From Pocillopora verrucosa (Eukaryota > Cnidaria > Anthozoa > Scleractinia > Pocilloporidae): a stretch of DNA of 64,000 nt. The notes below the pieces were generated by a model that was not told the origin of the DNA, did not search any database, and saw only the letters and a list, made by a program, of their open reading frames with translations. Of this stretch, positions 24,989-57,838 are shown piece after piece; positions within the stretch are counted from its first letter, which is position 1, and each line of letters starts with the position of its first letter. The position numbers and the translations under genes were made by a program. The stretch spans positions 26,672,825-26,736,824 of the forward strand of contig NC_089316.1 of the NCBI RefSeq assembly GCF_036669915.1, written 5' to 3'.

Positions 24989-24994
24989 TTTATT
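24989..24994 (-). terminator. Poly(A) signal candidate for P1
   Basis: AATAAA on the minus strand about 230 nt beyond the P1 stop. MRTO4 and P1 converge here. Confidence 0.4.
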
Positions 24995-25223: not shown

Positions 25224-28200
25224 CTATTTCTTATCAAAAGCTGCTATTAATTTCTGGAGCCGTCCTTTTCCCATTGCCTCATCCTGATCTTCAGCTTCAC
25301 CCTTCTCCAATACTACTTCTTTCTTTTTTTCCTCAATGTGGTACTGATTAGATTTTTTTTCAGTAACTTTCTGCTTCTGTTTTCGTTCATTTTGTTTGGA
25401 TGTAGTTTGTTTTAATTGGCCACCTTTACTGGCTTCTTCCAACTCTCTCCTTATTTCACTTGGTGATTTAAAAATCTCGTCACCTTGCTCGATGTTGGCA
25501 GTCATAGCCTTTCGCTTCTTCTTCGTCTTTTCCTCTCGAGTTGAGCTTGAATTTTTGTCCGAAGGCGCTGGCACAATTACATCGTCTACCATAATCATAA
25601 CACTGTACTGCGGAGCTTCTGTTATTTCTTTCTTCTGTTTCTTGCTCCCTCGAGGAAACAGTGCAGGTTTTAATTTGTCTTTAAATTTCCTTGGTTGAGG
25701 GACTGGTCCCGGTTCAGCTATTTCTTGAGAGTTGACGACATTACCCTTAGCTCTTGTCACATGATTTATATCGCCAATTCCAATTGGCAAGTTGCTTGGT
25801 TGTCCTCCGTCAACCTTTGTATCTTTAGTATTGAAAGGGCCTGGAGCGGATTCTTTCGGCGAGTTAATGACGTCGCCGAGCGTCTTGTGATTAGTGTAGG
25901 AGTTGTTGTTTGGTTTAACGTGAGTGATGTCAACATCAACACTATCTACGTCATCGTTCGTCGTGACATCAGCATCGTCGCTTTGTAAGTCATCTGTGAC
26001 GTCAAAAAAGACATCACCATTGTCATTTATGCCAGTTGCTTTGCCGTCGACATTCTGTTGGTTTTCTCTCATTCTCATTAGTTCCTCAAAGGGATCGAGG
26101 ATTTCTTCATCGTTCTTGTCTTGAGACTGAGGTTGTGGGAGATCTAACGGATCAAACGAGACCAGCAGAGTTTGCTCAGGAAATACAGGGGGAGATGGTG
26201 ATTGCAAAGTCAGGTCAGTGACGTTTGTCAGGGTGGAGGTGTAAGAGGCCTGGGACTCAAACTGAAACAGATCATCTGAAGGTGGTTTAATCAACAGCGG
26301 TTGTTGGTATTCCTGTGACGGTTCATAGTCGATCTGCGAGGTAACAGCATCATCTACTCCTAAATCAAGACCATCATCTGCCGTATGCGTCAAAGTTGCT
26401 CGACTTGGTGGAGATTCAGTGACCGCTGATCGTTGGTAATCAATGTAGGAGTTATTTCCGTCAATCAGATCGTCTGCGAAGTCTTCTGCAGTTTGTTTTT
26501 CACTCGGCGTTTCAGTCATGTCAGCATGGCTGTAATCGGTGTGGAAATCTGGTAAATCTCGAGTAATATCGAACAGATCTTCTGTCATCCCTAGTGAAGT
26601 TGTTTGCTTTCCTAGCGAATTTTCGAGAACTGGTGACGTGAAATCGATGTGTGGCTCTATAATGTCAATAATGTCCTCGGTAGCTGGGGTATCAGGAGTA
26701 TCTACTCTGACTGGTTTATTAAATTGGACACCAGAGACTTCCCTGCTATCATCGTCCAATTTCTGTGAACGTTCTTGTTTGGGTGTGTTTGTTTTTACCT
26801 TATCAGCAGTAACACTATCGCATGGAATTACATTCACAACAGGGATACCAATCGTGCTCTCATTATCTGATTCCACAGGCATATCCTCCCTAGATAAATT
26901 ACTGGGTGCCCTGTCTTCATTAAGTACACTACTTTCGTCGAAAAAGTCGAACATGGACTGAGTTGATCGAAGTGAATCGACGGAGCTGTCTCGGCTCCTG
27001 TTCGGTCGCTGTCGTGCTCTGCTCGGCCTTCCGTACTCTGACAGATTATCAGCGCTTTTTCTCCTCCAATCCTTACCTCCCATTGATGTCCTTTGCACCC
27101 TTATTTCGTGTTTCTTTATATCTTTTAGGAGTTCGTTTTCCAAGTCGGTTACTTTGATTTGAGCGGTGCTTAACTTGTCTGACCAGTCTCGAATCAATTT
27201 ATCTGCTCTCTCCGGATTAGACTGCAACTCCGACACTCTCGCGACCGCAACTTCGGAATCCGTCGGAAGGTTTGCTTTCTCTTTATACATCGCCTCCAAC
27301 TTCGCTAGCTTGGCTTTTGTGTCGGCTAATTCTTTTGAAAGCCTTTCATTCTCGATATTTACTTTCTTGTAGGACAACTCGGTTTCCCTGAGTTTCTTGT
27401 TGACTTTTTCAGACTCATTTTCCAAGTCATCAATGTGTTCTTTCTGCATTTTCAACTTGGCTTCTTTGCGCGCGAGATCCTTCTTCACAGACTGCAGAGC
27501 TCGTTCGGCTGCATCACGGTTGTAGTTTGAGTTCAAAGCGCTCTCTTCACGTTCTGCTAAATTATTCCTGAATTCATCACTGATTTCTTTCTGTTTCTGC
27601 CAGCGTTTCTCCAATTCTAAGTTTTCTTCCTTCGAGTATTTTAACTTTCGGTTAAGTTCTTCAAGTTCCTCATGTAGGTCTGCATTATCTCGTGTAGCAT
27701 CTTCCAGCCTCTGCTCAAGAGAGGCAGTTTTCCCTCGCATTTCTCTTAACGAATCTTCCATTTCGTTGATGTTTTCTTCTTGATTTTCTCTTGTTGCTTC
27801 CAATTCGGATAACATCTTTTTCGTCCTCGATAATTCTTCCCGCAACTTGTTTTTTTCTTCCATGTCTCTGTGTTGAATGTCCTCATTCTCGGCTTTACTC
27901 TTCTCCAACAAGTTCACTTTTCTTTGAATAACTTCATTATCTCTATCTCTGGTTTCGAGTTTCTGCTTCAAAGTTAAACGTTTCTCTCTTTCATACTCAA
28001 GCTCGTGGCGAATTTCATTGGTTGTCTTCTCCAGTTCTTCTTTCTTATCTGCAAGTGTTTGTTGTTTGGAAAGTGAATCATTGAACTTCCTCTCCATCTT
28101 TGTCAGTCTCTCCTTCAAGTCATTGTTTTCTGCTTCGGTTTTGTCAATTTTCTCCTTTGCATTTGCAAACTTTTGCTGTAAGAACTGTTCGTTTGATAGT

Positions 28201-31200
28201 CCATTATCTCTAGCCATTTCAAGTTCTGCAATACTCTCCTCTGCTGCTCTCAGTTTTTTCTCCAAAACTGCAATCTTTTCCTTGCTTGAATCCAAAGACG
28301 CGCGTGCTTTTTCAAGGTCCTTCTCTGCATCATTGTAATCTCTTTCGAATTCCCTACTCTCTCTTTGTGACTCATCCAGCTGCATTTCAAGTTTTGCAAT
28401 TCTTTCTTTGGCCTCGCGCAAGTTTTCCCCAATTTGGGCATTTTTGTCTTCGCCTCTCTCGAAAGCTGTTTCCAAATCTGTTATACTTTCATGAGCTGCT
28501 GATAGCTGCTGCTCAAATTCTTTCGTTTCTCCTTTAGATTCAGCCAGTAATCGTTCCATTTCACTTTGCGTTTCCGCTGCTTCTTCCAATTTTTCTCTCA
28601 GACGTTCGTTTTCTGCTCCCAACTTACTATTTTCACTTTCGTAATCTTCAAGCTTATCGACAAGATCTTCCACTTTGTTCTCTTTCTCAGATATAATCTT
28701 CTTATTTTCTTTCCTCTCCAACTCCAAAGCTTGGATCTTTTCATCTTGTTCTGCAATGGTGTGCTCCACATCTTTCAAATTGTGGATAAGTCTTCCTTTT
28801 TCTTGTGAAACCGTGTAAAATTGCTCTTTGGTTTCAATGAGTTCTGCATGAAGATCAGAGATCTCGGTTTGATTGTTGCTCGATAACGACTTAATTTCAC
28901 TATATCGTTGTTCAGAGAGATTTAATTCGTCTTGAAGTTGCTCTATCTGATTTTCCTTCTCTCTGATATCTTCTTTCAGCGCTAAAATCTCATCTTTATT
29001 TTCCAGTAGTGAAGTTTCTAAACTGTTTTTGGCCTTCACCAGTTGTTCTTGCAAGTGTTCGTTTTCTATTTGCAAATTTCTCAAACTCTCAGAAGCTTTT
29101 TGTTCATTCTCTTCTCCTTCAGCCATCTTTTCTCGTAACTCGTTCACTTCCCTCTCTAATTCTGCGGAACCCTCCTGAAGAAGAGAGATTTCTTGTAATA
29201 ACGCTGTCGCCTCTTGTTCCATACTCTGATACTCACGCCCCTTCTCGCCCACCTGAACTTGCAAATTGGCATAGCTCTCTTCAGATTGGTTTAAATTTGC
29301 TTTTAGGGTTTCTTCTGTGTTGCGTGAAATTTCCTGTTGTCTCTCCAGCTCCACTATAACTTCTTGTGCTCTTTGCAGCTTCTCCTGGGCATCGGAGCAC
29401 TTCTCAAGCTGTTCAGATACAGCCCTCTCCTTCTCTGTTACCTCAGAGAGCATTTTTTGCAAATCATTAACCTCTTGTTCCAATTCTACAGAACCCCGTT
29501 GCAAGTGAAGAATCTGCTGCTGCAAATTTTTAGCATCTTGGTCTGCATTTCGGCATTGTTTCTGGGCTTCACTTAGTTGTACCTGCAAATTTGCATTGCT
29601 ATCTTCTGATTTATGAAGTAGTTCTTGCAGAGATTGTTCTCTCTCGCGTGAAAGTCCTTGATTTCTTTCAAAATCCAGAATAATTTTCTGGGCCCTTAAC
29701 AACTCTTCTTCAACGTGAGAACCTGTTTCCTTGGAGCTATTTACAAAGGATTTTAGATCCTCTCGTTCATTGCATAACGCGGACAGCTCTTTTTGTAACT
29801 TGGCAACCTCTTCATCTTTTGCAAATAGTTCCTCTTGCATTATCTTTTGAAAATTGTCTTTGTTTTCCTGAACAGAGATACAATTCTTCTCCATAATTTT
29901 TAGGTCTTCTTGAGTTTTTGATAATTCTGACAATAATTGTTCCTTATCTTCTGCCATCTTGGCCAGACATATTTCATAATCTCGAACTTTATCTTCCAGC
30001 TCCCTCTCATTGGTTTGAATTTCATCAACACCTTCGATCACAGGTTTCATAGACGGACCATCTTGTTCATCGGCAAAATTTATGAGTGTTCCATCAGGTT
30101 CACTTTCTAAACATTCCACATCATTCTCTAAACCTGCCTCCACAACAGGTTGTAAAATGGCTGTCTCTATCGGCTCGTCGACAAAAAGCAAAATATCTTC
30201 AAGTTTCTCCTGCTGCGGGTTATTTTGCTCCACGCGATTTTCCACCCGTGATTTAATGTTGTGGTTTTCCTTCAATGCTTGCGCGAGTACCTTCTCCTTT
30301 TCTCTCAATTCCTTGTTCTCTTCCATCATCTTACGAAGCTTCGAATCGATTTGAAGTTGTAAGCTCCTTGCTTCCTCTTCACGATCTTTAAGCTCTTCGT
30401 TCTCAGCAAGGACGTCCGCCAGTCGCTTCTCAGTTTCTTTAAGCCTGCGAGCTTCCAGTGCAAGTGCAGCTTTCGTTTTACTGTCCTCGTTTGTTGCCAC
30501 ATTTTCCTCGAACAAAACGGGTTGTTGAGGATGAAATTTATTTTGGATGAGAATTTCTCTTCTTAGTTTGTCAATAGCTTTTTCTCTCTCCAGGTCTGAG
30601 AACCCGCTATCTGGACTCGCCGGACCCGCTGTGGGGTTAAATGGCCAGGAATCTTTAGCTGCACCTTCTTTTTGGGGTGACCGCATCGGTAATTTTCCAG
30701 ATTTTAGTAGGTCCAATTCTTGGTCCAGCAACATCTTCGCCATTCGTAGACCTTCCATCTGACGATTTTTCCCGAGAATTTCATCGGTTAATGCATCCAT
30801 TTGGTTGTGAAGCTCCAACAGTTCATTCTGTAGTTCTTTAATTCTTTCATCTTTCCTCTTCATGAGAGTTTCATGAGCGTCTAATCTCATTCTTTGCAAA
30901 GAGTTTTGTTCCCGTGCGCTTTGCAATGCTTCTTCCAACTCTTCGATTTCTGTTTTGCTTGTTTCGTAATCTTCCTTCAATCTTTGATTTTCCAAGTTCA
31001 GTTCTTGGACGTCCTTCTCAATATCACTAACTCGTTGCTCGTCTTCTTCATTCACTTTCTTGGATTGTACCCTTCTCTCTAAAATCGAAATTTTTTCTTT
31101 AGACCTCTCAGCCTCTGCTAGTAGATCTCTCTTCTTTTCCTCACTGGACTCGTAAAATCCGCGTACTTGTGCGAGTTCTTTCTTAGCGAGATACAACTGT

Positions 31201-32663
31201 TGCTCAACTTGGGTGTATTTTTCCAAGTTCGCGAGAACATCCTGACTTAACTGCGCTTCTTTGTCATCGTGTTGTCTCTTTTGCCGCTCCAATTCATCAA
31301 CCTTTCCTTGCAATTCGTGTAGATGCAGCTTCATTTTAGAAATTGCGCTTCCTTGTGCTTCAGTAGTCGTTTCTGAGCTCAAACGATCAATCTCCCGATC
31401 TGCGTTTTCTTTCTGTAGTCTTTCGTTTTCTATCTTCAGCGACCTCTCTTCGCCTCGAACAGCGGCCAGTTCTCTTTTCAGCTCTTCGATCGCTTTTATG
31501 AATCCTTGTTTCTCCTTGCACACAGATTCAAGGAAACGTTCTTTGTCGTTCAACTTATCTCTGTAACTTTCGCACTTTTCTCGTAGCACCAAAATGCCTT
31601 TCTCCAGTTCAGGCAAGTTTGCTTTGGAATTTGCGTCGCTTATGCAACGCTGTAAATACAAACGCTCTTGCTCCGAGCTACTAAGCTTTTCTCTCAAAGT
31701 GTTTATTTGCTCCTCGCTAAACTGCAATTCTTGCTGTAATTTTGTATTATCTCGCTCTGAATTCAAACGTGTTGCATTCACCCTCAAAATTTCGTCTTGA
31801 AGTGTTTTCATATCTTCATGTAAACCTTTGTTTTCAGCTTCCAAGCGATTAAGCTTTTTATCTTTAGAGCTCATGTCTTTGTTATAAGACTCGCAAAGCT
31901 TTTCCTGAAGAGCGACTTTTCTTTCAAGTCTAGCATAATCATTTGATTCGTATTTACGAAGCATTTCCCTTAAACGAGAATTTTCTTTCATGAGTGTTTC
32001 GCTAAGGTCATCATGCTCAACGTAACCAGGTTTTATTCGATAACCACGGAGTCCATTTTCACGTGGGCGAGAATTACCCGTCGCTTTTAGTAGCATATTC
32101 TCTCGTTTTAATGTATCCACATCCGTTTCAAGTGTTTGTTTAGCAGCTTTCAGCCGCTCGATTAAAGCATCCTTCTCTGCTTCTTCTTCACGATGTTGCT
32201 GGCAAGATTCTTGATGCCTTAAAAGCTGCGCGTGCATAATTTCAAAGCTAGAGATTAAATCTTCTTTCTGGGCTTCCATTTGTTCAAAATAGGACAACAG
32301 TGACATTTTTAGATCGTCCTCTAATTTCGATACTTGAAGACCCAGCACCCTCACCAGACTATCACGCGCCCCTCGTGATTTATCACCTTCTATAAAATCT
32401 GTACTTTCGTGCGGGCTAAGATCCAAATTTGGCGATTCCATTCCTACTCCAGAACTTGCTCCCTCGTCGCTGTCTTGCCTGAGCTCTCGGTAACCATCCC
32501 ATTCACTTTCTCCGTTCATTGTGGATGATTCACCGTTCGATATACCATGGAAATTCTCCGAGTCGCTTTTCGGATCCGTAAGCGCCCTTAATTTGTTCAG
32601 GGTTTCCTTTGCTAGTTCGAGCTGTTCGTGAATCTGTTCTTTTTCCTGTGCGTAATTTGCCAT
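25224..32663 (-). CDS. P1: giant single-exon coiled-coil protein, 2479 aa, family not recognised
   Basis: One uninterrupted 7.4-kb reading frame from MANYAQEKEQIHEQL to LIAAFDKK. Residues 1-100 are low-complexity and acidic. Residues 103-190 form a block shared with P2 (DLISSFEIMHAQLLRHQ; LIERLKAAKQTLETDVDTLK). From there to about residue 1860 it is almost continuous Glu/Lys/Gln/Leu heptad coiled coil, broken near residues 640-680 by a Pro/Ser loop (MRSPQKEGAAKDSWPFNPT) and near 800-870 by an acidic loop. A 105-residue tandem duplication lies at about 29075-29715. The last 620 residues are disordered: basic Ser-rich sites (RRKSADNLSEY, RSRDSSVDSLRSTQSMF), an acidic 33-residue repeat (26270-26700), DPL and DPF tripeptides, and a Lys-rich end. 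No motor, kinase or membrane segment is seen. A cytoskeletal, Golgi or centrosomal scaffold is plausible, but no function can be assigned. Confidence 0.9.
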   Translation of the reverse strand: MANYAQEKEQIHEQLELAKETLNKLRALTDPKSDSENFHGISNGESSTMNGESEWDGYRELRQDSDEGASSGVGMESPNLDLSPHESTDFIEGDKSRGARDSLVRVLGLQVSKLEDDLKMSLLSYFEQMEAQKEDLISSFEIMHAQLLRHQESCQQHREEEAEKDALIERLKAAKQTLETDVDTLKRENMLLKATGNSRPRENGLRGYRIKPGYVEHDDLSETLMKENSRLREMLRKYESNDYARLERKVALQEKLCESYNKDMSSKDKKLNRLEAENKGLHEDMKTLQDEILRVNATRLNSERDNTKLQQELQFSEEQINTLREKLSSSEQERLYLQRCISDANSKANLPELEKGILVLREKCESYRDKLNDKERFLESVCKEKQGFIKAIEELKRELAAVRGEERSLKIENERLQKENADREIDRLSSETTTEAQGSAISKMKLHLHELQGKVDELERQKRQHDDKEAQLSQDVLANLEKYTQVEQQLYLAKKELAQVRGFYESSEEKKRDLLAEAERSKEKISILERRVQSKKVNEEDEQRVSDIEKDVQELNLENQRLKEDYETSKTEIEELEEALQSAREQNSLQRMRLDAHETLMKRKDERIKELQNELLELHNQMDALTDEILGKNRQMEGLRMAKMLLDQELDLLKSGKLPMRSPQKEGAAKDSWPFNPTAGPASPDSGFSDLEREKAIDKLRREILIQNKFHPQQPVLFEENVATNEDSKTKAALALEARRLKETEKRLADVLAENEELKDREEEARSLQLQIDSKLRKMMEENKELREKEKVLAQALKENHNIKSRVENRVEQNNPQQEKLEDILLFVDEPIETAILQPVVEAGLENDVECLESEPDGTLINFADEQDGPSMKPVIEGVDEIQTNERELEDKVRDYEICLAKMAEDKEQLLSELSKTQEDLKIMEKNCISVQENKDNFQKIMQEELFAKDEEVAKLQKELSALCNEREDLKSFVNSSKETGSHVEEELLRAQKIILDFERNQGLSREREQSLQELLHKSEDSNANLQVQLSEAQKQCRNADQDAKNLQQQILHLQRGSVELEQEVNDLQKMLSEVTEKERAVSEQLEKCSDAQEKLQRAQEVIVELERQQEISRNTEETLKANLNQSEESYANLQVQVGEKGREYQSMEQEATALLQEISLLQEGSAELEREVNELREKMAEGEENEQKASESLRNLQIENEHLQEQLVKAKNSLETSLLENKDEILALKEDIREKENQIEQLQDELNLSEQRYSEIKSLSSNNQTEISDLHAELIETKEQFYTVSQEKGRLIHNLKDVEHTIAEQDEKIQALELERKENKKIISEKENKVEDLVDKLEDYESENSKLGAENERLREKLEEAAETQSEMERLLAESKGETKEFEQQLSAAHESITDLETAFERGEDKNAQIGENLREAKERIAKLEMQLDESQRESREFERDYNDAEKDLEKARASLDSSKEKIAVLEKKLRAAEESIAELEMARDNGLSNEQFLQQKFANAKEKIDKTEAENNDLKERLTKMERKFNDSLSKQQTLADKKEELEKTTNEIRHELEYEREKRLTLKQKLETRDRDNEVIQRKVNLLEKSKAENEDIQHRDMEEKNKLREELSRTKKMLSELEATRENQEENINEMEDSLREMRGKTASLEQRLEDATRDNADLHEELEELNRKLKYSKEENLELEKRWQKQKEISDEFRNNLAEREESALNSNYNRDAAERALQSVKKDLARKEAKLKMQKEHIDDLENESEKVNKKLRETELSYKKVNIENERLSKELADTKAKLAKLEAMYKEKANLPTDSEVAVARVSELQSNPERADKLIRDWSDKLSTAQIKVTDLENELLKDIKKHEIRVQRTSMGGKDWRRKSADNLSEYGRPSRARQRPNRSRDSSVDSLRSTQSMFDFFDESSVLNEDRAPSNLSREDMPVESDNESTIGIPVVNVIPCDSVTADKVKTNTPKQERSQKLDDDSREVSGVQFNKPVRVDTPDTPATEDIIDIIEPHIDFTSPVLENSLGKQTTSLGMTEDLFDITRDLPDFHTDYSHADMTETPSEKQTAEDFADDLIDGNNSYIDYQRSAVTESPPSRATLTHTADDGLDLGVDDAVTSQIDYEPSQEYQQPLLIKPPSDDLFQFESQASYTSTLTNVTDLTLQSPSPPVFPEQTLLVSFDPLDLPQPQSQDKNDEEILDPFEELMRMRENQQNVDGKATGINDNGDVFFDVTDDLQSDDADVTTNDDVDSVDVDITHVKPNNNSYTNHKTLGDVINSPKESAPGPFNTKDTKVDGGQPSNLPIGIGDINHVTRAKGNVVNSQEIAEPGPVPQPRKFKDKLKPALFPRGSKKQKKEITEAPQYSVMIMVDDVIVPAPSDKNSSSTREEKTKKKRKAMTANIEQGDEIFKSPSEIRRELEEASKGGQLKQTTSKQNERKQKQKVTEKKSNQYHIEEKKKEVVLEKGEAEDQDEAMGKGRLQKLIAAFDKK

Positions 32664-32709
32664 GTATTCAATCAGTCGAAAATAATCCAGCGTTAATAGT
32701 CGCTTTTAA

Positions 32710-32731
32710 GTCGCGGCAAGCATGCCGCGAC
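32710..32731. promoter_or_regulatory. Perfect GC-rich hairpin upstream of the P1 start
   Basis: GTCGCGGCA / TGCCGCGAC, a 9-bp perfect stem with an AGCA loop, 46 bp upstream of the P1 ATG. If transcribed it lies in the 5' leader and could affect scanning; alternatively it is a palindromic DNA site. Confidence 0.5.
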
Positions 32732-34099
32732 GACTTTTGAAGCTAAAATAAACCATGTACGTTACTGGAGGATCCTCATGAGATAAAGACGCTTTTGTAT
32801 TGACTTTCTGCCTCTTCACGTTATAGATAGGACTCCTTCTTTGCAACACTCTCCAGGTTCGCTAACGAACGTAGCTTATTTTTATGCGTGATGAAAATGC
32901 ACACCGCAAAGTCTGAAACTGAAATTATTACCCGAAGAAATATACTGACTGTTATTCACCGCAAAGTCAAAATTCCCATCGATACATCCCTGACGATAGA
33001 TTTTGGACGTTTAGCACCTGAAGTTGTCTTCAAATTTCTCGGCTCTCGGTGAAACCACAATGTCATGAGTTCTCTATTCGTGAAATTTTGTAAGAGGCCA
33101 TTTAATCAGGAATAAAGCGGCTGATATCTATTATGCAAAAAAGCCATTTGTTGTTATTTCCCGTTTCCTTCTTTTTCTTTGTGATTCGTCAGTTGTGAAG
33201 TTTACGACAGGTGTACGTGTCATTTTCTGAAACTATGGAGACCAGTTTTTTTTTAACTGGCACCAGATTGGCTGATGCATTGTACGACCTGTCATTTAAT
33301 TTTGTGAAAAAAACGAACTTAACTTAGAGTCTAAAATTTCTGACATTTGAATACTGGCCAAATCAATCATTTTCATTGATTTGTTCAAATTTTGGCGCAG
33401 AATATAATCTGATATTGCTGCTGCAAACATTCATACCTGTTATATTGATTCATCAATTTAAGTCGAGCCTGAATAAACAGCTCGCAAATATATCCATTTA
33501 CAATGCACAGGAAAGAAAGCTCAAAACTGGAGCAATATTTTTCAAAACACAACAGCGTCTGTTTAAGATTTATGCACGTATACGATAATTGTTATTGAAT
33601 TTTATCTTTATTTGATTTCTGGAAGTAACATTGGACGAGGATATTTAACAAGAGCACGGCAATTGAATTTGCCTCCGTTGGCAAATTTAGAGCGTTAATG
33701 TATCTCATCGGATTTTTCAGACCTTAATGAAAAAAACTTTTTCGCTCAGAAAACGAAAATTTACATAATTCAAAATCATTGAAACGAAAATTTTTGAAAA
33801 CTTTGACCGTAAAATTCAGTAAAAGAAATTGAAAATTTAGATTCATTTCTTTAAAGTTTTTTGCTTAGTTAAAATGTATTTTGAAAATTGTAGTCAGGTT
33901 GATTTAGAGATAAATTTTAGCATTTAATTAGGCAAATTAGGTTAAGTTTTGTGCGCTAGCGTTTGTCGCAGTTGGCAACCTTCATTAATTTGACTTTTAT
34001 CAACTTCCAACTGATAATATTTTCAACGTTCGTGGTCTTGATTTTTTTTACGGTATGCGCTTTCCCACTCACGTTACCGAAATATTCGTTAAAGGTGTT

Positions 34100-34309
34100 T
34101 TCCTTTAACTCCTATAACTGACCAAGACAGAATTTCTCCCTACAAAATCTATACAATGTCAGACAGAAAGGGGATGAAAATTAAGAATGATATTAATTTA
34201 GGGATTATTAGTTGATCCAATACCAAATTCTCCGAACAAGCATAATAATAATTGAATGGCAGACAGTAAGGAGAGTTAATGATGACATCTTGGGAGTGAA
34301 AGGGTGAAA
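34100..34309. repeat. MITE copy, subtype A1
   Basis: TTTCCTTTAACTCCTATAAC at the left, TGGGAGTGAAAGGGTGAAAG at the right, with TTAGTTGATCCAATACCAAA inside. Confidence 0.75.
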
Positions 34310-34329
34310 GGAAACGTACAATGGTACCT

Positions 34330-35856: not shown

Positions 35857-38800
35857 TTAATACTTCCATCTTCTTCTTGGCTCTCTCCTGCTTTCAATTT
35901 GTGCAATCTCATATCCCCCGTCCTCCTCTTCCTCGAGAGCAAATTCCACAGGTCCATACTTCCGGTCCCTATACACCTGAAAAGATGAGGCACGTCCGGT
36001 GGACCATGATGCATTTGGTGCATTTTTCGCTTCTTGTTCAATATCAATTTCCAGTTCAGTCGTTTCGTGACGTTCTTGGACGTCGATGTCGAGTGTAGTT
36101 GTTTGTGTCTTTATTTCGAGTTCTGTAATAGTGGTCTGTGGAGTAAAACTGTATTCCGAAGTTCTTTGAGGTCTGGCGTCAAATTGAGTTCTTGAGGTCG
36201 GTGGCGCAGAGCTGTATTCAGTTGTTGTCTGCGGAGTTACGTATGACTCTTCTGTTTGTGGTGTAAAGCTGTATTCAAATGTCCTCTGTGGTGCCACATT
36301 GATGTCCAGTGTTGTAACCTGTGGTTTCACATCAATGTCCAGAGTCGTTGTCTGCTGAGGCCTTTCCGTGACATCGACACGAAGCGTGGATGTTTCTGTT
36401 TGGTCATCAGACAATTCAAAGTCTTCCAGTTGTCTCTTACACTGCTCATATGCTCTGTGGCTTAGAATCAAGTCATCTTGCAAGCTCTGAATCTCGCGCT
36501 CGAGCTCGTCAATCCGGTCTTGCAGGTTTTTAACCTCATTGGCCTTGCGCTCTCGGTTCAGCTCAAGTAACTTGCACTTTCGTCTTTGATCTCCAAGTTC
36601 TCCCTCCAGTCTCTCAAGTCGACCCTGTTTGGCGATGATGTCATCGTTCGCATCGTCCAGTTTCCTCTGAGCATTTTGCAGCTCAATTTCCATTTTTCTT
36701 ATTTCAAAACGCATGCCGCTGACTTCCTCAGAGATTTTCTGTTTTTCCATTGCTCTGGAATCGAACTCCCTTTCGACGATCAAAAGCCGATCCTGAGCCG
36801 TTTTCAATTCGTACTCCAAACGACGTTTTTCCTCTTCTAAGTAACTATTAGACTCTTCAAACCTTTGCAACTTGTTCTTACAGTCATTAAGATCAAATTC
36901 CAGATTCTGCTTCTCTTGGACCAAGGTTTGTTTCTCGATCAGGAATATACTGCGTTCCTCTTCAATCCTGGTGTACTTCTCTTTGATCACTGTGTATTCG
37001 TAGAAGAATTCCTCCCTTTCGCGTCTCACTTTTCCTACATCCTCGGTTATTTCAGCTTTGGATGCTATATCAGCCATCAGTCTTTCTATTTCTCGCGTCA
37101 GTTCTCTATTCTCTTTAGTGAGACTTATCTTTTCGCTTTGGAAAGTCTTGATTTCGTCTTGTAGCGTCGATCTCTCTCTTTCCCATGCCTCCAGATCTCG
37201 TTCTCTAGTTCCAGCCTCCCGCTGTAATTTCTCTAGCTCTCGTTTCACCCGCCAAAGTTCCTCTTGAACTTCAGATCTACTGACTTTAAGGGTGTTTAAT
37301 TTCTTCCTTAAAGCTGCTCTTTTCATTTTCAAATGAGTCATATTCGTATTTACTCATTGACATCTCTCGTTTAAGGTGGTCAATCTCGAGTTTGCCGCTT
37401 GTATTTCCTCTTGAGCCTACCATTTTCCTCATCACAATGACCTTTTTCTGTCTTCATAACGGAAAACCTTTCCTTGATATTCTCATAATCATCTTTATTA
37501 GACGAAGTTCTTCATCGGCGCGTGATTTTTCTTTCCTCAAGTTAAAAGCTTCTTCTCTATAATTCTTCCTTTCCTCGTCCCAGCTGTCCTTGTTTTCCCG
37601 GGTATACACCAGCTCTCTCTTCAAGGTGGACACTTCAAAATAAGAGAACTTATTTGAGCGTTGAGATCGCTGTTGAGGCTTTCTTTCTCAAACACTACTC
37701 GTTGATGGTCATCGACTGCCCGGTCATACTCGAAAGTTTTAGCCGATAATTCAGATTCGCTCTTATGTAGCCTCTCGAGAGTTTCTTCTAGTTCATCTCG
37801 TAAACGATTCGTTTCTAAAATTGATTTATTGCTGCGATCATTCAGCTGCTCTTGCAAGTAATCCACTTCTTTGGTCTTTTCATCCAGTAGCCTCCGAATA
37901 CGAAATAACTCCTCACTTTTTGCTTGTTGTTCATCAGAGATTTCTTTCTTCTCTTGCACGATACGTTGGTAGGTCACTTCTAACTCTGCATACCTGGTCT
38001 CGACAGAATGCAGCTTCTCTTCAAGGAAAGCTTTCTCCTCAATGCCAACAGAGGCATTACTAAGTTGTGTAACTTCATGACGCGAGACAAGGAAAAGCTC
38101 ATTTTCAAGAGTGCTAATTTTTTCTCTGCATCCTCCAAACCTGACTGAAGTCTTTTGTTGTCGTCTTGAGAACGATCGTACATACTTTCCGTGGTAGAGA
38201 GTTTTCGGTGTAAATCCAGAAGTTCGTCTTGAAGATTAAGCGCTCCGTCTTTAGTACCATCCATTGCATCTCCTTGCTCCTGTAGTCTTCTCTTTAATTT
38301 GCTATTTCATCTGGAATGATTCTTTTTCTTGGTGACAATGTTGATGTGCCATCACCATTTCTGATGCTTTCTTGTGTGTTTCCAACAGCTCTCTTGAAGG
38401 CCGAGTTTCTCGTCTTCGCTTTCTTTACAAAACCTTTCGAGCTCACGGTATTTATCAGTGCTGGTTTGGAGTTCATTCCTTAAGCTTCGGATGTCCTGTT
38501 GCACTGGATTCTCGATCGGTGCTGCCCGAAAAGCGCCCATCAACAAGACTTTCCTCACTGAGTCATTCTTGGTCTTTAAAAGTTTGTACTTCCTTCTCTG
38601 CCATCAGCACCTTTCTTCCTCAAGAACTCCATTTCCTGGCTGCAGCCCGAGGGTCTGACTCACTCGATCTATCAATCATCTTGCAGTGTACATACCAGAT
38701 TGTGTGCTGTAATCATCTCATTGCGAACCTTTTCCTTTTCTTCTTCACATAGTTTCAGTAGCCTCTCCTTTTCTACTAGTTCATCCTTGATCACCTCTAG

Positions 38801-44800: not shown

Positions 44801-47800
44801 TTCTCTCCACTTCTCTTGTAGCTTTCGTCTATCATTTTCTGTCTGCCAGACTTGCTCCTTCTTCTTCGTCAATTCTGAGTTCAAATATTCATTTTGAGAT
44901 GTTAGTGAAGTTATCTTCAATTTGCATTCCTCGACAATCCTTTCCTTCTCGAGCAATTGGTGTGAATACTCGCTAACTGATTTCTGGTTTTCCTCCAAAC
45001 GAATTTTGACAACAGTCAATTCATCCACGGTCTTCTTGTTTGAAACATTTAGATCTCCAGAGTGATATTCTAAGGAAGCTTTTTCTCTTTGTGTCTGCTG
45101 TAAAGCACCCTCTAGTTTGTCCACTTTCTGCTCCAGAACCATTACTTGACGTTGTGCGTCCATTTTTTCGTGTTCACACGTTTGATAAGATCCTTGAAGT
45201 TCGGCGAGTCTCTTGTAAAACGAGTGAATCTCTTCCTCCAGCTTTTGCTTTTCGTGTTCACACAGCTTGTACATGGCTTCAAGTTCTTGGAACTTTTCTT
45301 GATTTTGCAGAAGTTCTTCTTGGAGATCTTGCTTGCTTTGTTGAAGTAAGTCGTTCTCTGTTTGATATTTGTCGAGCGTTTCACTCGTCTGTCCAAGCGT
45401 CGTTTCAAGAGAAAAGCACTTGCCTCGTAGCTCTGTTATGGTATTGTCCTTGCCGGAAGCATCTTTCCGCAAAGCATCTAAACTTCGCTGACAGTCGTAA
45501 AGGTGACTTTGTACTGTTACTAGTTCATCTTTGCATTTTAACAGCTTTGCCCTAACATCCTCTAACTGTTCTCTGTACTGCGTTTTTTGCCTCTGCGCAT
45601 GATTTAACTGACCTTCAAGCTTCGTTGTTCGATGTCGAGTGCTATCCAGTTGTCTTTCCAAATCATCATTTTCTTCTTCATTTCTCTGAATTGTCTGCCT
45701 GAGTTCTGATACCTTTCTCTCTGCATGTGTAAGTTGTTGTTTAAGATCTTCTTTCTCGCGCTCGCTAAATTCATACGCGGACTCGATCTCAGACAAACTC
45801 CTGTGAGCCGCATCCAGTTTTTCCTCTAAATCGTCGATTTGACCAAATTTATACCCGTGATCTGTTTCAAGCTGGGAAGCTTTGTGCTTTATGATAGATA
45901 GCTGTTCTTCTAGATCGCCTATGACCTTACGAGCAGCATTCAACTGTATCTCAAGATCTTTCACTTTTTCTTGAGCCCTGGCGTATGAGTCCTCCACAGT
46001 CGTCAACTTGTTGGTCACGCGGTATAGGTCTTTCTGAATCTCATCCTTCTCTGATCGCAGTGAGGTCAAATTATATTCAAGCTCTGTTATCTTATTTCCA
46101 GCTAACTGCAAATCGTCTTCTAAGATGTCTCTCTTCTGCTTCACAGCCTGGCCTGTCATTTCGTTTTGTCCCAGTTCAAGTCTCATCTGTTCCATCTTCC
46201 TCATTAAATTGTTTTTCTCATCTTCTAATTTATCGATTTGATGACTCTTTGCTAAGAGCTCCTTTCGATACGCATCACATCGTTGCTGGTGCTGGATAAA
46301 TTCTTTCTGCAAATGTGTATACTCATCTTTGGTTTTCTTCAACTCGTCACGAACTTCTTCGAGCTGTTCCTTCAGAGAGTCTCGCTGTTTAAGAACCACT
46401 TGGACTTGTGACTCAAACTTGCTGACCTTCAGGTGATTGGTACGGATTTCATTTTGTCGATCTTTTTGGCTTTTATTGAACTCGTTTTCCACCTCATTCA
46501 CCATCTTCTGAGCATTTCGTAGTTCCTTTTCTAGACTCTCGTGTTCTTGTTGCAGCATCTTGTACGCATTTTCCCACTCCTGGACCTTGTCCTTGGCCAA
46601 GCGCATCTCTTGCATAATTTCGTATCTCTCTGTATCAAACGCCTCCACGCTGGAAGTGGTGTTTACCAGCTGAACCTGAACACTTTCAAGTTCCCTCTCA
46701 ATAGTTTCCTTTTCTACTCGAATCTTTTTATTTTGTGTTTCCTTGGAGTGAATATCCTTGTGGTACACTTCAGAGTCTCTCATAAGCTCTTGCAGTCTCG
46801 TTTGGGCCTTGTGCAGTTCATCTTGGTATCTTCGAGCTGCATCTCTGCTCTCCTCTAATAATTGCTGCAGCTGCTGCTTTTGCTTGGATAAATTTTCTAC
46901 TTGGGTCTCAAGCTTTGCAATCTTTGCCCGATCTGTTTCTCTAGTTGATTCACCTTCGTTCTTTGCAGCTTTGTAAAGGTTTTCAAGCTCTGAGAGCTTC
47001 TTTCGTACCTCTAGTATTTCCCTCGACAACTCGTCTTTTCTCAATTCTGAATTCTCAAAAGCGCTCTCTATTTTGCTCTTGTTGTCCTGATGGAACAATA
47101 TCTCTTTTTCAAGCTTGCTAATACTGCCTCTACAACTTTCAAGCTCATGGTGTAGCCTTCTTTCTTGTTCTTGCAGTCTTCCATAAGCTTTCTCCAACTC
47201 GGAGTTCTTCGCTTCGAGGGAAACTATCTCCTTTTGGAGCTGCAGGTTCTTTTGCCGCCCGGAATCACAGTCTTCCTCAAGTTCTCGCACGTGCGCATTT
47301 GTGTCTGCGAGTTGATTTTGAAGTAATTCCAACTCAACTTCAAAAGTTCTTGTGTCGGGAACATAACTTGTGGAATGATCTCCAGATTCATCAAGCGCTG
47401 AGTCCAGCTCTTTTTTAAGCGCCATGTTTTCCCTTTTCAACTGCTGCACAAGACTCTCCTTCATTTCACTCTCTTTGTTAACGCGCTCGAACCGCCTGGC
47501 GCCATCTTCGATCTCCCTTTCTAATTTGCTAAATTCCACTTTGCACCTCTGAATCTCCATCGTTTTAGTTTTCAAGCTTTCTTCATTCCTTCTCAGTTCT
47601 TGAATTTCACTTTCAAGTCCGCTTATTTTGGTCCTCAATACCATGGTGTCCTGTTGTGAGGTTCGTTTCTCGCTATCACGGCTCGACTCGTACCTCGAGA
47701 TGTTCCTTTGAGCCGTCAACACTTCCTGTTGTAATCTTTCCTTGTCGTTTTGGATTTTTTCACACATATCTTTCCACTGTGCGTTGTTGTCCTTCATAGA

Positions 47801-50065
47801 ATTCAACTCGCGTTGAAGATTTTCTCGTTCTTGTTTTAGACGTTCGCAATCTTTTTCGAACTCGGCATTTCGCTGTCTCTCGATCACCAAATCATTTTGC
47901 AAGTTCCCTTTTTCCCGCTGACAGGCTGCGAGCTCCCTATTCAACGTCTCAAAATCTTGCTTGAATCTCTGAATTTCAGCTTCCAGTAGTTCCTTTTCGT
48001 CTCTAAGCTGGTGCACCGTTTTGTCTCTGTTCTGCACTTCTGTACTGAGGTCATCACACTTCTTCTGTTGGTCATACCATTGGTTATCTCTCTGCTTTCC
48101 ATCATCCGAAACATTCACCAGCCGTCTTTTGGCCTCCTCTAATTTCTCCACCAGGCTTTGCTTTTCGCTCTGAGTTCGTTGAAGTTGCTGCTCAACTCTG
48201 TTAAATCGGTTTTCTAAAGCTTTCATATCGCGCTGAATTTCTGCCTTTTCTTGTTTGTATCGCTCCGTTTTAGCTTCAAACTCGCCCAGCCGCTTGTGCG
48301 AGGAGAGGACTTCCTGTTGTAGTTGGACCTTCTGTTGTTGACAGCTCTCATAAGCGTTTTTCAGCTGTGCCATTTTAGTATTTGCAGGTATTAACTCTTG
48401 CTGAAGCTGTAGCTTCTCCTTTTGACAACTTTCATACGCACTTTCAAGCTTTGACAACTTCTTCCGAACAATTACAAGTTCATTTTCAAGGTCTAATTTT
48501 TTTTGTTCAAGTGAATCATCCAAAGCTTCGACTCTGAAGTGCTTTTGTTTGTATTCCTGCATTTCACGATGTAATCTCTCGTTCTTCTGTCGGCAATCTT
48601 CGTAGGAAATCTCCAACTCAGCAAACCTTCGTTCCGAGGCGAGAAGTTTCTCTTGTAAAATTTCCCGGTCTCGTCCAACTTCCGTTTGTGAAACTTGAAT
48701 AGCAGTACGCGTTGACTTCAATTTTTCCACCTCAACCGCGCTTGTCTCCAGTTTCTCCCGCAGCTGCTGGACAAGATTATCTTTGGCAGCGATCTCTCTC
48801 ATGTGGTTCTCATTTAGCAGGTACTGCTCTCGAAACTGAATTTTTAGTTTGGATAACTCTTCTTTCTCTGTGTGACTGTGTGAGCTAATTTCTTGAGATC
48901 TTCGCTTTTCCATATCTCTTTGCCGTCTCTCGTTCTCTAACTCGGCTTCAAGTTTGGAGATTTTACTTCTGGAAGATGTCAAATCATGTTGAAATTTTCT
49001 CTGTTCTTGTAAATATTTGTCACTCTCTGCTCGGCAGGCTGCCAGCTCGCTTTTGAGTGTTTCCACCTCGGTCTCTAAAGTGGCTTTTGTAGCTTTAAGT
49101 CTTTGTATAAGCGTCTCTTTTGACGAAATTTCATTCTTTTGCATTTCATGGTGTCTTTGATGTTGTAAAAGCTGAGTTTGCATATTCTTAAATTCTTGAA
49201 TTAATTGCTCTCTCTCGGCCTGCAACTGGTACTTTTGCGATACGACGGCTTTTTGTAACCGTTCTTCAACTTCCGACATTTTACTGCCGAGCTCCAACAC
49301 ATAACTCTCATCAATGTTCGAAAGTTCGCCTCGTCGTGGGCTTGAAGATGTAGAAGAAGCAAATCGATACGATTCGCGCGAGCTAACCCCCTCAGTTCTT
49401 CTGCCACTTTCCAGACTGCGTATAATTTCCTCATAATGCGAAGCAGTATTGATCAACTCTTGTAAAGTCTGTTTATCTTTCGCAACACTCTCCATAGTTA
49501 GCACTAATTCTTCCCTACCCTCGATAGTTGTCGTTTCGCTACCAAAACTCCGCGAAGTTTTCGACGATGAAGTTTCTTTCTGAAACTTTAACTGACTTTC
49601 TAGCCAATTCTTATCCACGCGCAGTGCAGAGAGTTCCACTTGCACGCCGCTGAGTTTATCCAGCGTTTGCAGTCGTTCATTTTGGGTTGTCTCCAGTGTT
49701 TCTTGTAATCTGTCATTTTCTTGATGCAACCTGCTGATCGTGGCGTCCTTCGCCTCTAGTTCTCCTCTCGCGCGTGCGTACTGCTGGTACACCTGTTCAG
49801 TGTTATGATGAGCGTGCGTCAATTCTTCTCGAAGTTGTTTAACAGCAATCTCTTTATTCTGTACCACGCTCTGGAGCTCTTGAACCTCATTTTCACGATA
49901 AACTCGCTCAGTGGTTACCATTCGTGTCTCTTTTGATTCCCGTACAACTTTCACTTCGTCTTGCAGCTGGCGAATAATGCTCTCCTTCCCCTCTACGGCC
50001 GCTTTCAGTTCCAGATTTTCAATTTCTAACGAGATGTTTCCTTTACCTCTTCTGTTTTCCATCAT
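35857..50065 (-). CDS. P2: giant coiled-coil protein, about 4,700 aa, with a patch of frame breaks
   Basis: An 11.4-kb open frame (38672-50131) continues, after about ten frame changes between 37340 and 38680, into a 494-codon frame ending at 35857. The start is placed at 50065 (MMENRRGKGN): a good acceptor (TTTCTTTAACAG|GGCC) ends at 50097, so upstream codons are intronic and a 5' UTR exon lies further up. Residues about 255-343 match P1 103-190 (QLIQEFKNMQTQLLQHQ; LIQRLKATKATLETEVETLK). The rest is near-continuous coiled coil with a 28-residue repeat whose hallmark is L-E-x-x-Y-x-x-C-x-x-E-K. The C-terminal 170 residues are a Thr/Gln/Pro tail with TTTLDIDV and EYSFTPQT repeats, ending RREPRRRWKY. 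No family recognised. The reading continues in coiled-coil style through the frame breaks, mostly at homopolymers, so consensus errors are more likely than a dead gene. Confidence 0.8.
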
Positions 50066-53000
50066 GAAACAAGATCTCCCTTTGCTCGGGATGGCCCTGT
50101 TAAAGAAAAGACGCAAAGCAAGACTTATCAACTGTGGAAGAAATTCTCGACTATTTTATTTTAGCATTGTAACCGATAGGTGTCGGAAAATGTTCATGTT
50201 TTAATTCGTTGTTTAGTTTGCGGTTTCAGACCTAATGGATAGTCCTCTAATTATTCTGAAAATAAACCGCATGTTTTGTGTTTTTATAAAAAATCAGCAG
50301 CGTCTCGGCTTTTCCACGCAAGGGGTATTGTTTACAAGCCATAAACGTCTTGAATAAAAAGAAAGAATCGAGACCCTTTACAAACAAAAAGAGAACTTTA
50401 GAACAAATATAATTTTAACTCGTAAATTAATTGACTATCTTGTGCATATTGTTTGAATACTTCTTGTGGTAGAACATATATGGCCATGTTTGTATAATCC
50501 GCGTGATTCTTTGGTACAGGTCTTAAAATTGTTCGATACTGTTAATTTCTTGTAACGCATGGAAAGTCTTGTTCTACCAGTTTAGTTAGAGACGATCAAT
50601 ACAATTGATTGACCTGTTTTTTTAACTGATCTATTACTCCATTAGTTTGGGTTTATTTACATTACGCTGTTAATACAGAATGCAAATGAAAACTGCCTGT
50701 TGATATTAATCATTATGTGCCCATTGTGAAAAAGTTGGAACACGTAATGGGTTTAAGAAATAAACCTTTTATTGTAGAGTAATCGTATGAAGCAGTTTAT
50801 GTAAAAACACGCCACAAAGCATAGTATTTCTATCATTTAAAGAAGTTAAAAACTTTCGTTAAGGGGGGCTGGTCGGTTTTACTGCATGTGAAACTATAAA
50901 AAAAATTAATTTTGCGAAATAGGAAATCACCTCGTCCAAAGATTCCTTTGAATACCATGATCAAAAATACATAGCCTAAACTCTTAGAAAAGTAGCTTTG
51001 GAATATTTTAGTTTTCATACAAACTTTGATTGAGCTTACGTCGAATTAAATCCAAAGAAAGAACTCATCATACTTTACATTTGTCTAACAAAATTTAACT
51101 GAATAAACTGTATGTTTGTATAATTAGAATTGAAAAGCAAAAAAATTGACAGAAACTATTCGAGTTTTCTATTTAGATAGAGGAACGTTTATCCATCGGT
51201 TTCTTTTTTGGTCTGTGCAAATTCATTTAACGTAGAACAATCTTTCGGTTTCATTGTGCAAAATTACAGCTCACCTGTTCTATAAGAAAGCTTTTTGTAT
51301 TACATTGTCAAATCAACATCTTAAACGATGCAAACTTGTCGTCTTCCCTTCGAGAAGAAATTTCAAGAGCAGAACCTCTGCAAGAATGAAACTCAATATT
51401 TCCATTTTGTCAGGTCTTGTCGACCGCAAAGTAAATAAATTCGGTAGAAAATCTTTCACCGAATCATCACTCCTTCCTTGGAAACTGGTGGATTTGCTAA
51501 TGATGCCGACAGCCAATCAGCTTGCAGTATTTTCCCGCGTTATTTACAAACAGTTCTATTCAACAGAACCGAAAGAATTTTTCATAATCTTCCTGTTGTA
51601 TCTAGGTAGTTTGCCAAGGCCGACAGAAGCTTTAATTCCTTAATCAACCAAGTTTATTATCAATCATACAGTTTCACAGAGAATGTTACGAAATATTGTA
51701 ATTCCTCCAAAACTCAGAAGCGAAACCACGAACACTTTCGTTCAAACTATGACAAAGGTTCTAAATTATGCATCAACTTATGGTTTTTCATAATTATCGT
51801 TGGGGTAAATGTATAATTTGCCCAGCATCAGGTGCGACCTAACTGCATTTCATACATACTGTTCATTAAATTGACAGACCTCTTATTTCATAGTAAAGAA
51901 CGTTCACCCAAATTTAGCAACGAATATTCACCAGCATTGGCCTATCGACGTGGTTCAAAATTTATGGGCGATGAATCTCCAAAAGAGCAGGGTAAACATA
52001 TTTTTTAGCTGTTTCGACTGAAATTAAAACTTAAAGGTAAAAACTAGCAAACTGCCAAAAGCGCAGGAAAATGCGCCTGTGGAAGTCGCGTTTGGTTTTA
52101 GTTTTGCATCTGATTGGTCGAGAGGGAAAGGCGACTTGGTCCACGTCAAGAAATACGTCATCGAGCGTCTGGTCATGCGAGGTAAAAAGTCAAGTAATTT
52201 CCATTGGCAAATTTTCAAGAATAGTCAAGGCTATTCCCGTTTTATTTTTCGAGGAATGGACTTTTTAAGGAAAAACTTGAACATATTTTTTCACCTTGAC
52301 AGACCTCCTAGCCATTTGGTCGCCATCATAAATTAGGCGAGCTTAAATTGACAGTCCATAATCCTCAAAAAAAAAAAACAACAACAACAACAACATAAAA
52401 AGCCTTAGCTTTTTTCCCGGGGCAAATCTAATCAACTTTTCATTTGACAAAAAGCCTTCAAAAGTTTCAGTTTTAAGGTTTACAACTTCATTATTTGTAA
52501 TGACATACGATAGTTCGCGGCAATTTGTGATTTAGTGAGAAAATAAGAAAAAAACTTTCTGTCATGCCGCAAGAGGAACCGCAAAAAAACATCTTAGTAC
52601 TGAATTCTTAAAAACTTCCACAAGGCTCGTTTGAAATTCACAGTCGTCTCGTGACATGATTTTCCTGTTCATTTCTCTTCTTCTCTGTGGTGTGTTAACT
52701 CGAATTAAAGTATTTACTAAGTATTTCGCCGCCGTCATGAGGTGAGATGTTTTGTCACGCTACAACTGCTTACAGTCGCGAAATTTAATACAAACTAATG
52801 ATCAAAAAGTCACATATACTTATCTGAGTTAATAAATTTACAGAATCTTACTCACCCAAAAAATACCTCGAGGAAGTAAATAAGCCAGTTATTGCTACGG
52901 CTTCTATTTGCATATCTCTCTACATCAAGAGCAACCGGTATACTTATTTACCGTTTCTCACAAAGCACGTTTCTGGCGCCATCTCCACACAGACTTCGCG

Positions 53001-56000: not shown

Positions 56001-56392
56001 TACTTTAAATGTAGTAAGTAGAATCGAAAATCTTGCAAAAATAACGTAATAAGCTTTATTTGTTGATAAAACTAATCTTCCATTACAAGAGTTTGAGAGT
56101 TTGCAAAGATGCTGACAATAATTTGCGAAGGATTAGCAAAGAATGTTTGAATATATAATACGAATTCTGTTTAATATGCTTTCACATTAATTATGAAAAA
56201 GGCTTATATGTAAGCAGATGAAAACATAAATATTACGAGTATCTGAAATTCCACAAACATAAAATATCTTAGAAAAATAGATAACGAATTTTCCTTTTTC
56301 AAGAAAGTTTACAAAAGAGGTTTGATATCCGTGTGAAACAAACGCTACTTTACATTCCAGTAGCCGAGTTAACTACATAAATATACTGGCTT
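50066..56392. other. Long intergenic region upstream of P2
   Basis: Should contain the P2 5' UTR exon(s) and promoter, because the P2 coding exon starts at an acceptor (50097), but I could not place the donor. Contains an inverted fragment of a satellite-like repeat near 52090, two direct units at 54957-55400, and a short CAA run (52376-52396). Open frames at 51254-51643 and 52071-52336 show no domain or codon-like bias I can defend. Confidence 0.5.
54957..55400. repeat. Two degenerate units of a roughly 235-bp CCAAT-rich repeat
   Basis: Both units follow the order CTCTGTGATTGG, (A/T)AAA(A/T)TCGCGCCA, TCTCAACCA, AAAACT(A)AAACCA, CGCG, TTCTCATTGGCTC-like, CCTC, TTTCACGACA-like. Unit 1 is about 54957-55190, unit 2 about 55191-55400. 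ATTGG/CCAAT and GCGCC motifs recur. I recall it as an abundant coral repeat. A reverse-oriented fragment (GTTTTGCATCTGATTGGTCG) lies near 52100. Confidence 0.65.
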
Positions 56393-57838
56393 TCAGCTTG
56401 ACTTTTTCGTGGCTTTGTCAACAATATCTAATGCCTCTTTGAGCCACGATACCTGCGTCTCTGATGCGAGAAACTTTCGTCTGATATCCGCTCCCTCCAC
56501 GCACTTCTTCTCCAAGCTGTTCCTCAAGTGACGATTTTCTTCGTTTAATGCTGTCATAGTGTCGTGTAAATCGTTGTAATCTCTTTTAAACTGCTGTAGA
56601 ATCTGGTTTTGACTCTGGCTTCGATTCCTCGCCTCTTCCAGATCTTTCTGAGTTGCTGCCAGAACGAGCGACAGCTCAGAAAACTTTCCATGGCTGTTGA
56701 GATGTTCCCGAAAGATCTCGTTCAATTCTACACAGAGCAATAACAAATGCTCATTTGTGGTAGAGTCTGTTTTAGCCTTACTCCTTTCCTCGCTGGCTCT
56801 GTTGCTTTGATCAGCAAGATTTTCTTTTAGTTCATTCACGAGACTTTTATAGGACGCAACTTCGTTTTCTAATGTCTGAATGCGCGTTTTCCTTTCGACA
56901 TCTAACTTTTCCCAGTTTTCTAAAACATTTCTCAATTCTCGCACTTCCTCCCAACATCCTTCCATCTCCGATTTCATTTGTTTCTTAATCTTCACTTTCT
57001 CCTGTTCGTTTTTCTCCGATTTCTTTGTCAACAGTTCCATCTCGTTGATCGCTTCGACTGCTTGATCACTCGCATTGTTGGCTTCAACTCTCAACTTACT
57101 CAAATCACTCTGATATTTACCGACAAAACTCCGCAAACTTTCCACCTCTTCCCAGCTTTTTTCATGCTCTTCTTTATAAACCACAATCTGGCTTTCTAAC
57201 TCTTCAATCCGCCGAGCTTTCTCGCTTTCATTTTCTTCCAGAAAATCAATTTTCTCCTTTAAAATTTTCAATTCGTTCTCGTGAGACTCCGCTTCAGATT
57301 TCAGCTCTTCTTCGAGTTTAAATCGTTCAACTAGTTCCTCTTCAAGCCTGATTTTAAACGTTTCCAACTGGCTTTGCACAGTCGCTAAATCTTTGCGTGT
57401 TATGTAAAGTTCCGATTCAACCTCTTCACGTGTAACTCTCGATCCGCAACTATTGCAATGCGTCTCTAAATTTTCCGCACATTTCATTCTCTTCTCTCCA
57501 TTCTCTAAAACCATTCCACTCCGTTCTGTGCAATTTTCTGTGTTTACACGAAGAGCATTAAATTGTTTTGAATCACCTGATCTTGCACCATTATGAACGT
57601 GATCGTAAACATTTTCGTCTCCATCTACATTTGAAGGAGACCCCTCAAAAGGTTTCAAATTTTCACAGATACCGTGCACCACCTGCTTAGAGTTGTCTTT
57701 GTAATTTGAATCAGCCATATAAATATCCTGTTCTCTTGTAGCGACAGCAAAACTTTCCGGAGTCTTGATTCTAATAATCTCTCGAATATTCTTGCTCCCA
57801 ACCGGCGGAGATCCCAACCTAATCGTTATATGAGTCAT
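56393..57838 (-). CDS. P3: 481-residue coiled-coil protein, single exon, family not recognised
   Basis: Open from MTHITIRLGSPPVGSKN to DKATKKSS with no visible intron. Residues 1-120 are non-coiled and polar. A cysteine cluster (C120, C128, C131; HCNSCGSRV) precedes the coiled coil, which runs from about residue 135 to 470 (for example RRIEELESQIVVYKEEHEKS). A less charged stretch (LLLLCVELNEIFREHLN) falls near residues 360-385. No enzyme motif is seen. It shares strand, exon style and composition with P1 and P2, but I see no clear sequence match to their shared block. A second in-frame ATG (MADSNYKDNS, residue 41) is an alternative start. Confidence 0.8.
   Translation of the reverse strand: MTHITIRLGSPPVGSKNIREIIRIKTPESFAVATREQDIYMADSNYKDNSKQVVHGICENLKPFEGSPSNVDGDENVYDHVHNGARSGDSKQFNALRVNTENCTERSGMVLENGEKRMKCAENLETHCNSCGSRVTREEVESELYITRKDLATVQSQLETFKIRLEEELVERFKLEEELKSEAESHENELKILKEKIDFLEENESEKARRIEELESQIVVYKEEHEKSWEEVESLRSFVGKYQSDLSKLRVEANNASDQAVEAINEMELLTKKSEKNEQEKVKIKKQMKSEMEGCWEEVRELRNVLENWEKLDVERKTRIQTLENEVASYKSLVNELKENLADQSNRASEERSKAKTDSTTNEHLLLLCVELNEIFREHLNSHGKFSELSLVLAATQKDLEEARNRSQSQNQILQQFKRDYNDLHDTMTALNEENRHLRNSLEKKCVEGADIRRKFLASETQVSWLKEALDIVDKATKKSS

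Follow-up and report, generated by a model that had tools for sequence, protein, structure and literature searches.

The DNA analysed here is a 64-kb window (the whole stretch, on contig C5) of the coral Pocillopora verrucosa, and its central part holds three genes, P1, P2 and P3, which are all minus-strand coding genes within positions 25224-57838 and encode coiled-coil proteins. An earlier note had described them as essentially single-exon genes of 2,479, about 4,700 and 481 codons, all dominated by heptad coiled coil, and had proposed a lineage-specific family of structural scaffolds that had expanded by local duplication. As judged from the sequences, the cluster is instead a duplicated pair, P1 and P2, beside a coiled-coil neighbour without detectable relation to either. 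Genome-wide searches covered the 353-Mb genome in 52 contigs.

P1 and P3 are each intact in one exon, as the earlier note had it. The P1 frame lies in a stop-free stretch at 25224-32705 (2,493 codons), is followed by an AATAAA polyadenylation signal at 24994, and encodes a product of ~286 kDa with an isoelectric point (pI) of 4.85. The stop-free stretch of P3 is at 56393-57844 (483 codons). P2, however, is not one frame of ~4,700 codons. Its main frame occupies a stop-free stretch at 38672-50155 (3,827 codons), no frame is open between ~38675 and 37353, and a second open frame encodes the C-terminal part. P2 probably also has a spliced, noncoding 5' exon: a consensus acceptor ends at 50097, a donor lies after 51275, and the segment 51377-51275 between an upstream acceptor and this donor looks noncoding because each of its three frames holds a stop. 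Coordinates are collected in Table 1.

Table 1. Features of the three genes and their neighbours, in window positions
Feature	Position	Strand	Basis or remark
P1, single coding exon, 2,479 codons	25224..32663	-	ATG at 32663
P1 C-terminal 680 residues	25227..27266	-	acidic, pI 4.71; 43% P/G/S/T/N/D
Shared element, P1 residues 82-188	32100..32420	-	blastp, MAFFT, shuffles, genome search
P2 main open frame, 3,797 codons	38672..50065	-	ATG at 50065; 446 kDa; 0.2% proline
P2 residues 1206-3378, heptad register without detected break, 2,172 residues	39932..46450	-	register path
Shared element, P2 residues 227-340	49046..49387	-	blastp, MAFFT, shuffles, genome search
P2 frame-broken stretch, ~1.3 kb	37354..38675	-	coiled-coil reading hops among three frames
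P2 C-terminal open frame, 498 codons	35857..37353	-	rod end, then tail with repeated words
Likely intron in P2 5' untranslated region	50097..51274	-	CAG/GTGAGC ... TTTCTTTAACAG/GG; splice consensus alone
P3, single exon, 481 codons	56393..57838	-	coiled coil from ~residue 140 on, by eye
RBR-type exon	9147-10049		IBR match, 81.5 bits (Pfam scan)
Glucosidase II beta open reading frames	12261-12533 and 14044-14259		domain split over two frames 1.5 kb apart
RPL19 open reading frame	17509-17898		carries just the last portion of the N-terminal domain
Open reading frame with AAA matches	62578-63171		weak, all under cut-offs (Pfam scan)

P1 and P2 share a paralogous element of ~105 residues near their N-termini, with 39% identity by blastp (E 8e-14) and 41% in a MAFFT alignment. 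The best 84-column score between the two proteins is 175, and 30 heptad-preserving shuffles reached 121 at most. When the P1 N-terminus was searched in six frames against the whole genome, the 21 candidates yielded two matches at E up to 0.001, namely P1 itself and P2 (E 6.5e-13, 40% identity). The presence of the element in these two genes only, together with its score above the shuffles, supports local duplication for P1 and P2, which are paralogues on this sequence evidence. AlphaFold, given a two-sequence alignment only, modelled the P1 piece as a single 92-residue helix (mean predicted local distance difference test score, pLDDT, 89.5; blocks of 93-99 from residue 21 of the piece onward), and the element would therefore itself be rod-like. 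The likeness of P1 and P2 in their rods outside this element (blastp E 2.5e-11) was not taken as homology, because its 84-column score of 127 barely tops the null maximum of 121.

The duplication does not extend to P3. Its best 56-column scores, 73 with P1 and 64 with P2, lie within the shuffles (null maxima 81 and 89, respectively), and a three-member family was rejected on this ground. P3 is a coiled-coil protein in its own right, with a power of 16.7 for LIVM residues at period 3.50 and an attraction between heptad positions g and e' that is above chance (P 0.002). About 1 kb upstream of P3 is an inverted repeat (58903-59003 and 59282-59383; ~102 bases, 90% identical) that could be a small transposable element. 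A bacterial promoter scan near this gene was disregarded as inapplicable to an animal gene.

The P2 main frame is heptad coiled coil nearly throughout, with a LIVM power of 154.6 at period 3.50. The register path has eight breaks over 3,797 residues, three of which, at 891, 1041 and 1206, are shifts of 3. Position a holds L, V, I, K and N, and position d holds L and A; such usage is typical of parallel dimers. Among 534 g-e' pairs, 136 are attractive and 54 repulsive, a balance of +82 versus a null of -4.4 +/- 13.4 (z ~6.4) that none of 2,000 permutations reached. No membrane-type segment was found, the highest 19-residue Kyte-Doolittle mean being 1.09. Coiled coils rise 0.1485 nm per residue, which predicts a rod of ~523 nm for residues 274-3797, or ~635 nm once the broken stretch and the part of the C-terminal frame ahead of the tail are counted in.

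Net charge along the P2 rod is banded with a period of 14 residues. Its power at this period is 27.5 in residues 1206-3378 (null maximum 6.4 in 200 shuffles), 9.0 in 3378-3797 (null maximum 5.5) and 9.1 in 274-891 (null maximum 7.5). No P2 part tested rose above the null at periods 28 or 28/3, with values of 2.0 at 28/3 (null maximum 5.3) and 0.2 at 28 in residues 1206-3378. The sequence also repeats every 28 residues, with z values of 3.3 (1190-3290), 5.7 (3360-3797) and 4.0 (280-840). Internal repeats reach a best 112-column score of 180 versus a null maximum of 129 in 20 heptad-preserving shuffles, and 17 among the 25 pairs listed exceed 129. None of seven Tandem Repeats Finder arrays represents a recent DNA tandem repeat in P2. 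Further similarity peaks in residues 1190-3290 (40196-46498), at lags of 196 (z 5.6) and 364 (z 5.2), are unexplained.

When two P2 rods are set parallel, the best attractive stagger beyond 5-8 residues is 77 residues (z 4.6). The 20 top staggers without those of 5-8 leave 16, six of which are exact odd multiples of 7 and eight are one residue off; 359 and 360 fit no odd multiple of 7. This pattern is not independent support, because it largely restates the 14-residue charge period.

The tail of P2 contains repeated short words, one resembling TTxLDIDV (three pattern matches) and one resembling EYSFTPQT (two matches), and these repeats suggest docking sites. Its predicted fold is uninformative (mean pLDDT 45.5). 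In the whole-genome search, five candidates gave one match, which is the tail itself.

P1 is a more interrupted protein, and the earlier claim of heptad dominance does not hold throughout it. Its heptad signal is strong at residues 840-1790, weak and interrupted at 210-840, and beyond residue 1820 no window of the heptad scan exceeds 3.1. The LIVM power is 23.3 at period 3.50, g-e' attraction is above chance (P 0.007, permutation test), and the 28-residue repeat in the rod has a z of 2.2. The last 680 residues are without clear heptad periodicity, have no Pfam match at E up to 5, and have no relative among PDB sequences at E 1. P1 could be a scaffold whose acidic tail docks partners.

We give an even chance to the reading that P1 and P2 are paralogous giant coiled-coil scaffolds, with P2 as the dimeric backbone of a cable or fibre and P1 as a sister scaffold. 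The cable is preferred for P2 because this role agrees best with the continuity of its rod, its dimer pairing and its even charge bands. P2 would form a parallel, in-register, two-stranded coil of ~0.5 micrometre on the intact reading, or ~0.6 micrometre should the broken frame reflect an error in the sequence. The 14-residue charge bands might then allow neighbouring rods to bind laterally when offset by an odd multiple of 7 residues, and the disordered tail at the C-terminus could serve as a docking site. P1 would be the shorter, more interrupted sister, and its long acidic tail could dock partners. The scaffold role proposed in the earlier note remains the best reading of the sequences.

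Several results weigh against this picture. The C-terminal frame of P2 taken alone does not have significant g-e' attraction (P 0.068). Acidic residues alone exceed the null at period 14 in residues 1206-3378 only, not in 274-891 or 3378-3797, and in P1 residues 945-1790 none of the charge periods 14, 28 and 28/3 is above null (3.3 at 28/3 versus a null maximum of 6.9). The stagger signal is modest, in that the maxima of the ten null runs listed go up to 3.7. Also, the length of the joined P2 hinges on reading its broken stretch as an error.

The main rival, which we consider rather unlikely, is that P1 and P2 are diverged orthologues of a named long coiled-coil protein of animals, such as a vesicle tether or a centrosomal or junctional protein, whose ends have evolved too fast for Pfam models. 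As Rose et al. state in their 2005 abstract (PMC1322226), eukaryote-specific long coiled coils are mostly motors, tethers and vesicle-transport proteins, and the long acidic tail of P1 would suit an adaptor. However, neither Pfam scans of five open reading frames (whole, at E up to 0.001) nor scans of six ends apart (at E up to 5) gave a family at cut-off, and no PDB sequence is a relative of whole P1 or P2 at E 0.001. The claims that no family is recognised, and that P1 and P2 carry no motor, GRIP or other named domain, therefore hold at these thresholds.

The best Pfam scores of the whole proteins are all from coil models and are below cut-off: Tropomyosin (26.5 of 38.6 bits) and ATG16 (23.3 of 33.7) for the P2 main frame, ATG16 (26.4 of 33.7) for its C-terminal frame, ATG14 (27.3 of 33.2) for P3, and PUMA_CC (20 of 30.1) for P1. 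Among PDB sequences at E up to 1, the P2 N-terminus has three weak matches (best E 0.015) and P3 has two, the better of which is a moesin/ezrin/radixin homologue (E 0.0092). Viral contigs searched with P1 and P2, and prokaryotic genome contigs searched with P1 and the shared element, contained no relative. Among the papers listed in literature searches, none deals with such a gene pair, judging by title.

The broken stretch bears on a second rival, which is decay at the 3' end of P2: a truncated or dying gene of which just the 3,797-codon frame is translated. Avoiding stops in 38900-37100 requires at least 10 frame switches on a count based on stops only, and a whole-genome DNA search found the stretch in a single copy, so no intact second copy is seen. 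On the same count, seven 1.8-kb noncoding controls need 19, 21, 25, 26, 30, 32 and 39 switches, and all four intact frames (P2 main, P2 C-terminal, P1 and P3) need none, as expected because they were chosen as stop-free. This count was relied on because a composition-based frame path, which was set aside, also placed 1-10 switches in intact frames. Introns were rejected as the source of most switches, because the coiled-coil reading picks up again within a few bases; ~95 bases near 38695-38601 are readable as a small intron.

Against decay, the 11.4 kb preceding the broken stretch and the 1.5 kb following it can be read without any switch, and a coiled-coil reading persists in each frame within the stretch. 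Because the errors are limited to one short stretch, unpolished or gap-filled sequence would fit better than decay, which we regard as improbable. The stretch is likely a sequence error, and only in that case does P2 comprise ~4,730 codons. Least probable is that P2 is a muscle-type filament rod, such as paramyosin or a headless myosin-like protein, which its 28-residue repeat, long parallel-dimer heptads and few breaks would allow, but charge power in residues 1206-3378 is at 14 (27.5) rather than at the 28/3 of myosin rods (2.0) or at 28 (0.2), and neither P1 nor P2 matches PF01576 at E 0.001.

Should P2 prove to be a fibre-forming cable, it would in our judgement rank among the longest coiled coils in animal genomes that have so few register breaks, and would point to a cytoskeletal structure as yet undescribed. 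Its 14-residue charge period offers a packing rule that can be tested. At this locus, moreover, a single duplication would have produced two giant scaffolds that differ greatly, both in giant exons. A bolder proposal, of which we are doubtful, is that P2 founds a distinct class of giant fibre-formers, different from myosin, intermediate filaments, SF-assemblin and rootletin. Its parallel dimer, unbroken over ~0.6 micrometre and charge-banded every 14 residues, would assemble into polar cables stepping by odd multiples of 7, and the structure they form would be present only in cnidarians.

Introns are normal at this locus, since both the glucosidase II beta domain and the RPL19 domain are divided between exons; for these two neighbours the earlier description as intron-bearing genes was right. 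The frame at 62578-63171 may be SWSAP1-like, and Pfam gives it just weak AAA matches. It shares the window with the PRKCSH-like exons at 12261-14259. SWSAP1 and PRKCSH also occur together in a cattle gene list for a 0.61-Mb region (DOCK6, RAB3D, TMEM205, CCDC159, PLPPR2, SWSAP1, EPOR, RGL3, ODAD3 and PRKCSH), as given in PMC12523860, and the coral neighbourhood may therefore be ancient. As a candidate lead only, P3 might be the counterpart of the coiled-coil gene CCDC159 of that region. Horse regions in which a list in PMC9526059 places both genes were set aside as too wide, at several megabases.

Three groups of ~200-base interspersed repeats also occur in the window, at 1320-1532, 13774-13985, 24581-24798 and 34102-34304; at 4295-4483, 13204-13395, 20794-21003, 23055-23263 and 61186-61397; and at 6139-6334, 11901-12096 and 18194-18381. 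Pairs within them are ~72-86% identical and in both orientations, resembling short interspersed nuclear elements. Two predicted tRNA-Thr sequences (20108-20180 and 24129-24201; anticodons GGT and AGT) lie inside a 225-base repeat, 79% identical, that is perhaps a tRNA-derived element. An array of ~40 AGTC tetranucleotides was found at 21847-22005 by Tandem Repeats Finder.

Compared with known systems, P1, P2 and P3 lack matches at E 0.001 to the kinesin motor of CENP-E and other kinesins, and to PF00063 or PF01576 of myosin II and paramyosin. The intermediate filament model PF00038 reaches just E 0.76 on the P2 N-terminus (9.8 bits versus a cut-off of 40), and the CENP-F leucine-zipper model scores 21 bits on the P2 main frame and 24.2 on its C-terminal frame (cut-off 34.5). 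Golgins, giantin and other tethers are giant, domain-poor coiled coils, and P1 and P2 are like them in size and composition, but have no GRIP match, no Pfam match over cut-off and no candidate membrane segment. Rods of myosin and paramyosin are like P2 in having a 28-residue repeat of four heptads and few register breaks. The charge period of myosin rods is 28/3, in contrast to 14 in P2.

Rootletin (CROCC) is likewise a long animal coiled-coil protein, and PMC8435291 describes its R3 segment as a parallel homodimer and mentions rootlets in putative proprioceptors of a cnidarian. PF15035, however, is absent from the matches of P1, P2 and P3 at E 0.001, and the two PF15035 matches of this genome are both on another contig (C9). 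SF-assemblin is similar to P2 as a coiled-coil fibre protein with a repeat built on four heptads. Its motif, as given in PMC8435291, is 29 residues including a skip residue, whereas that of P2 is 28 residues, and no skip was detected along 2,172 residues of its rod. Rose et al. (PMC1322226) summarise the roles of long coiled coils as cables and networks, scaffolds, motors, levers and others, among which P2 would belong with the cables.

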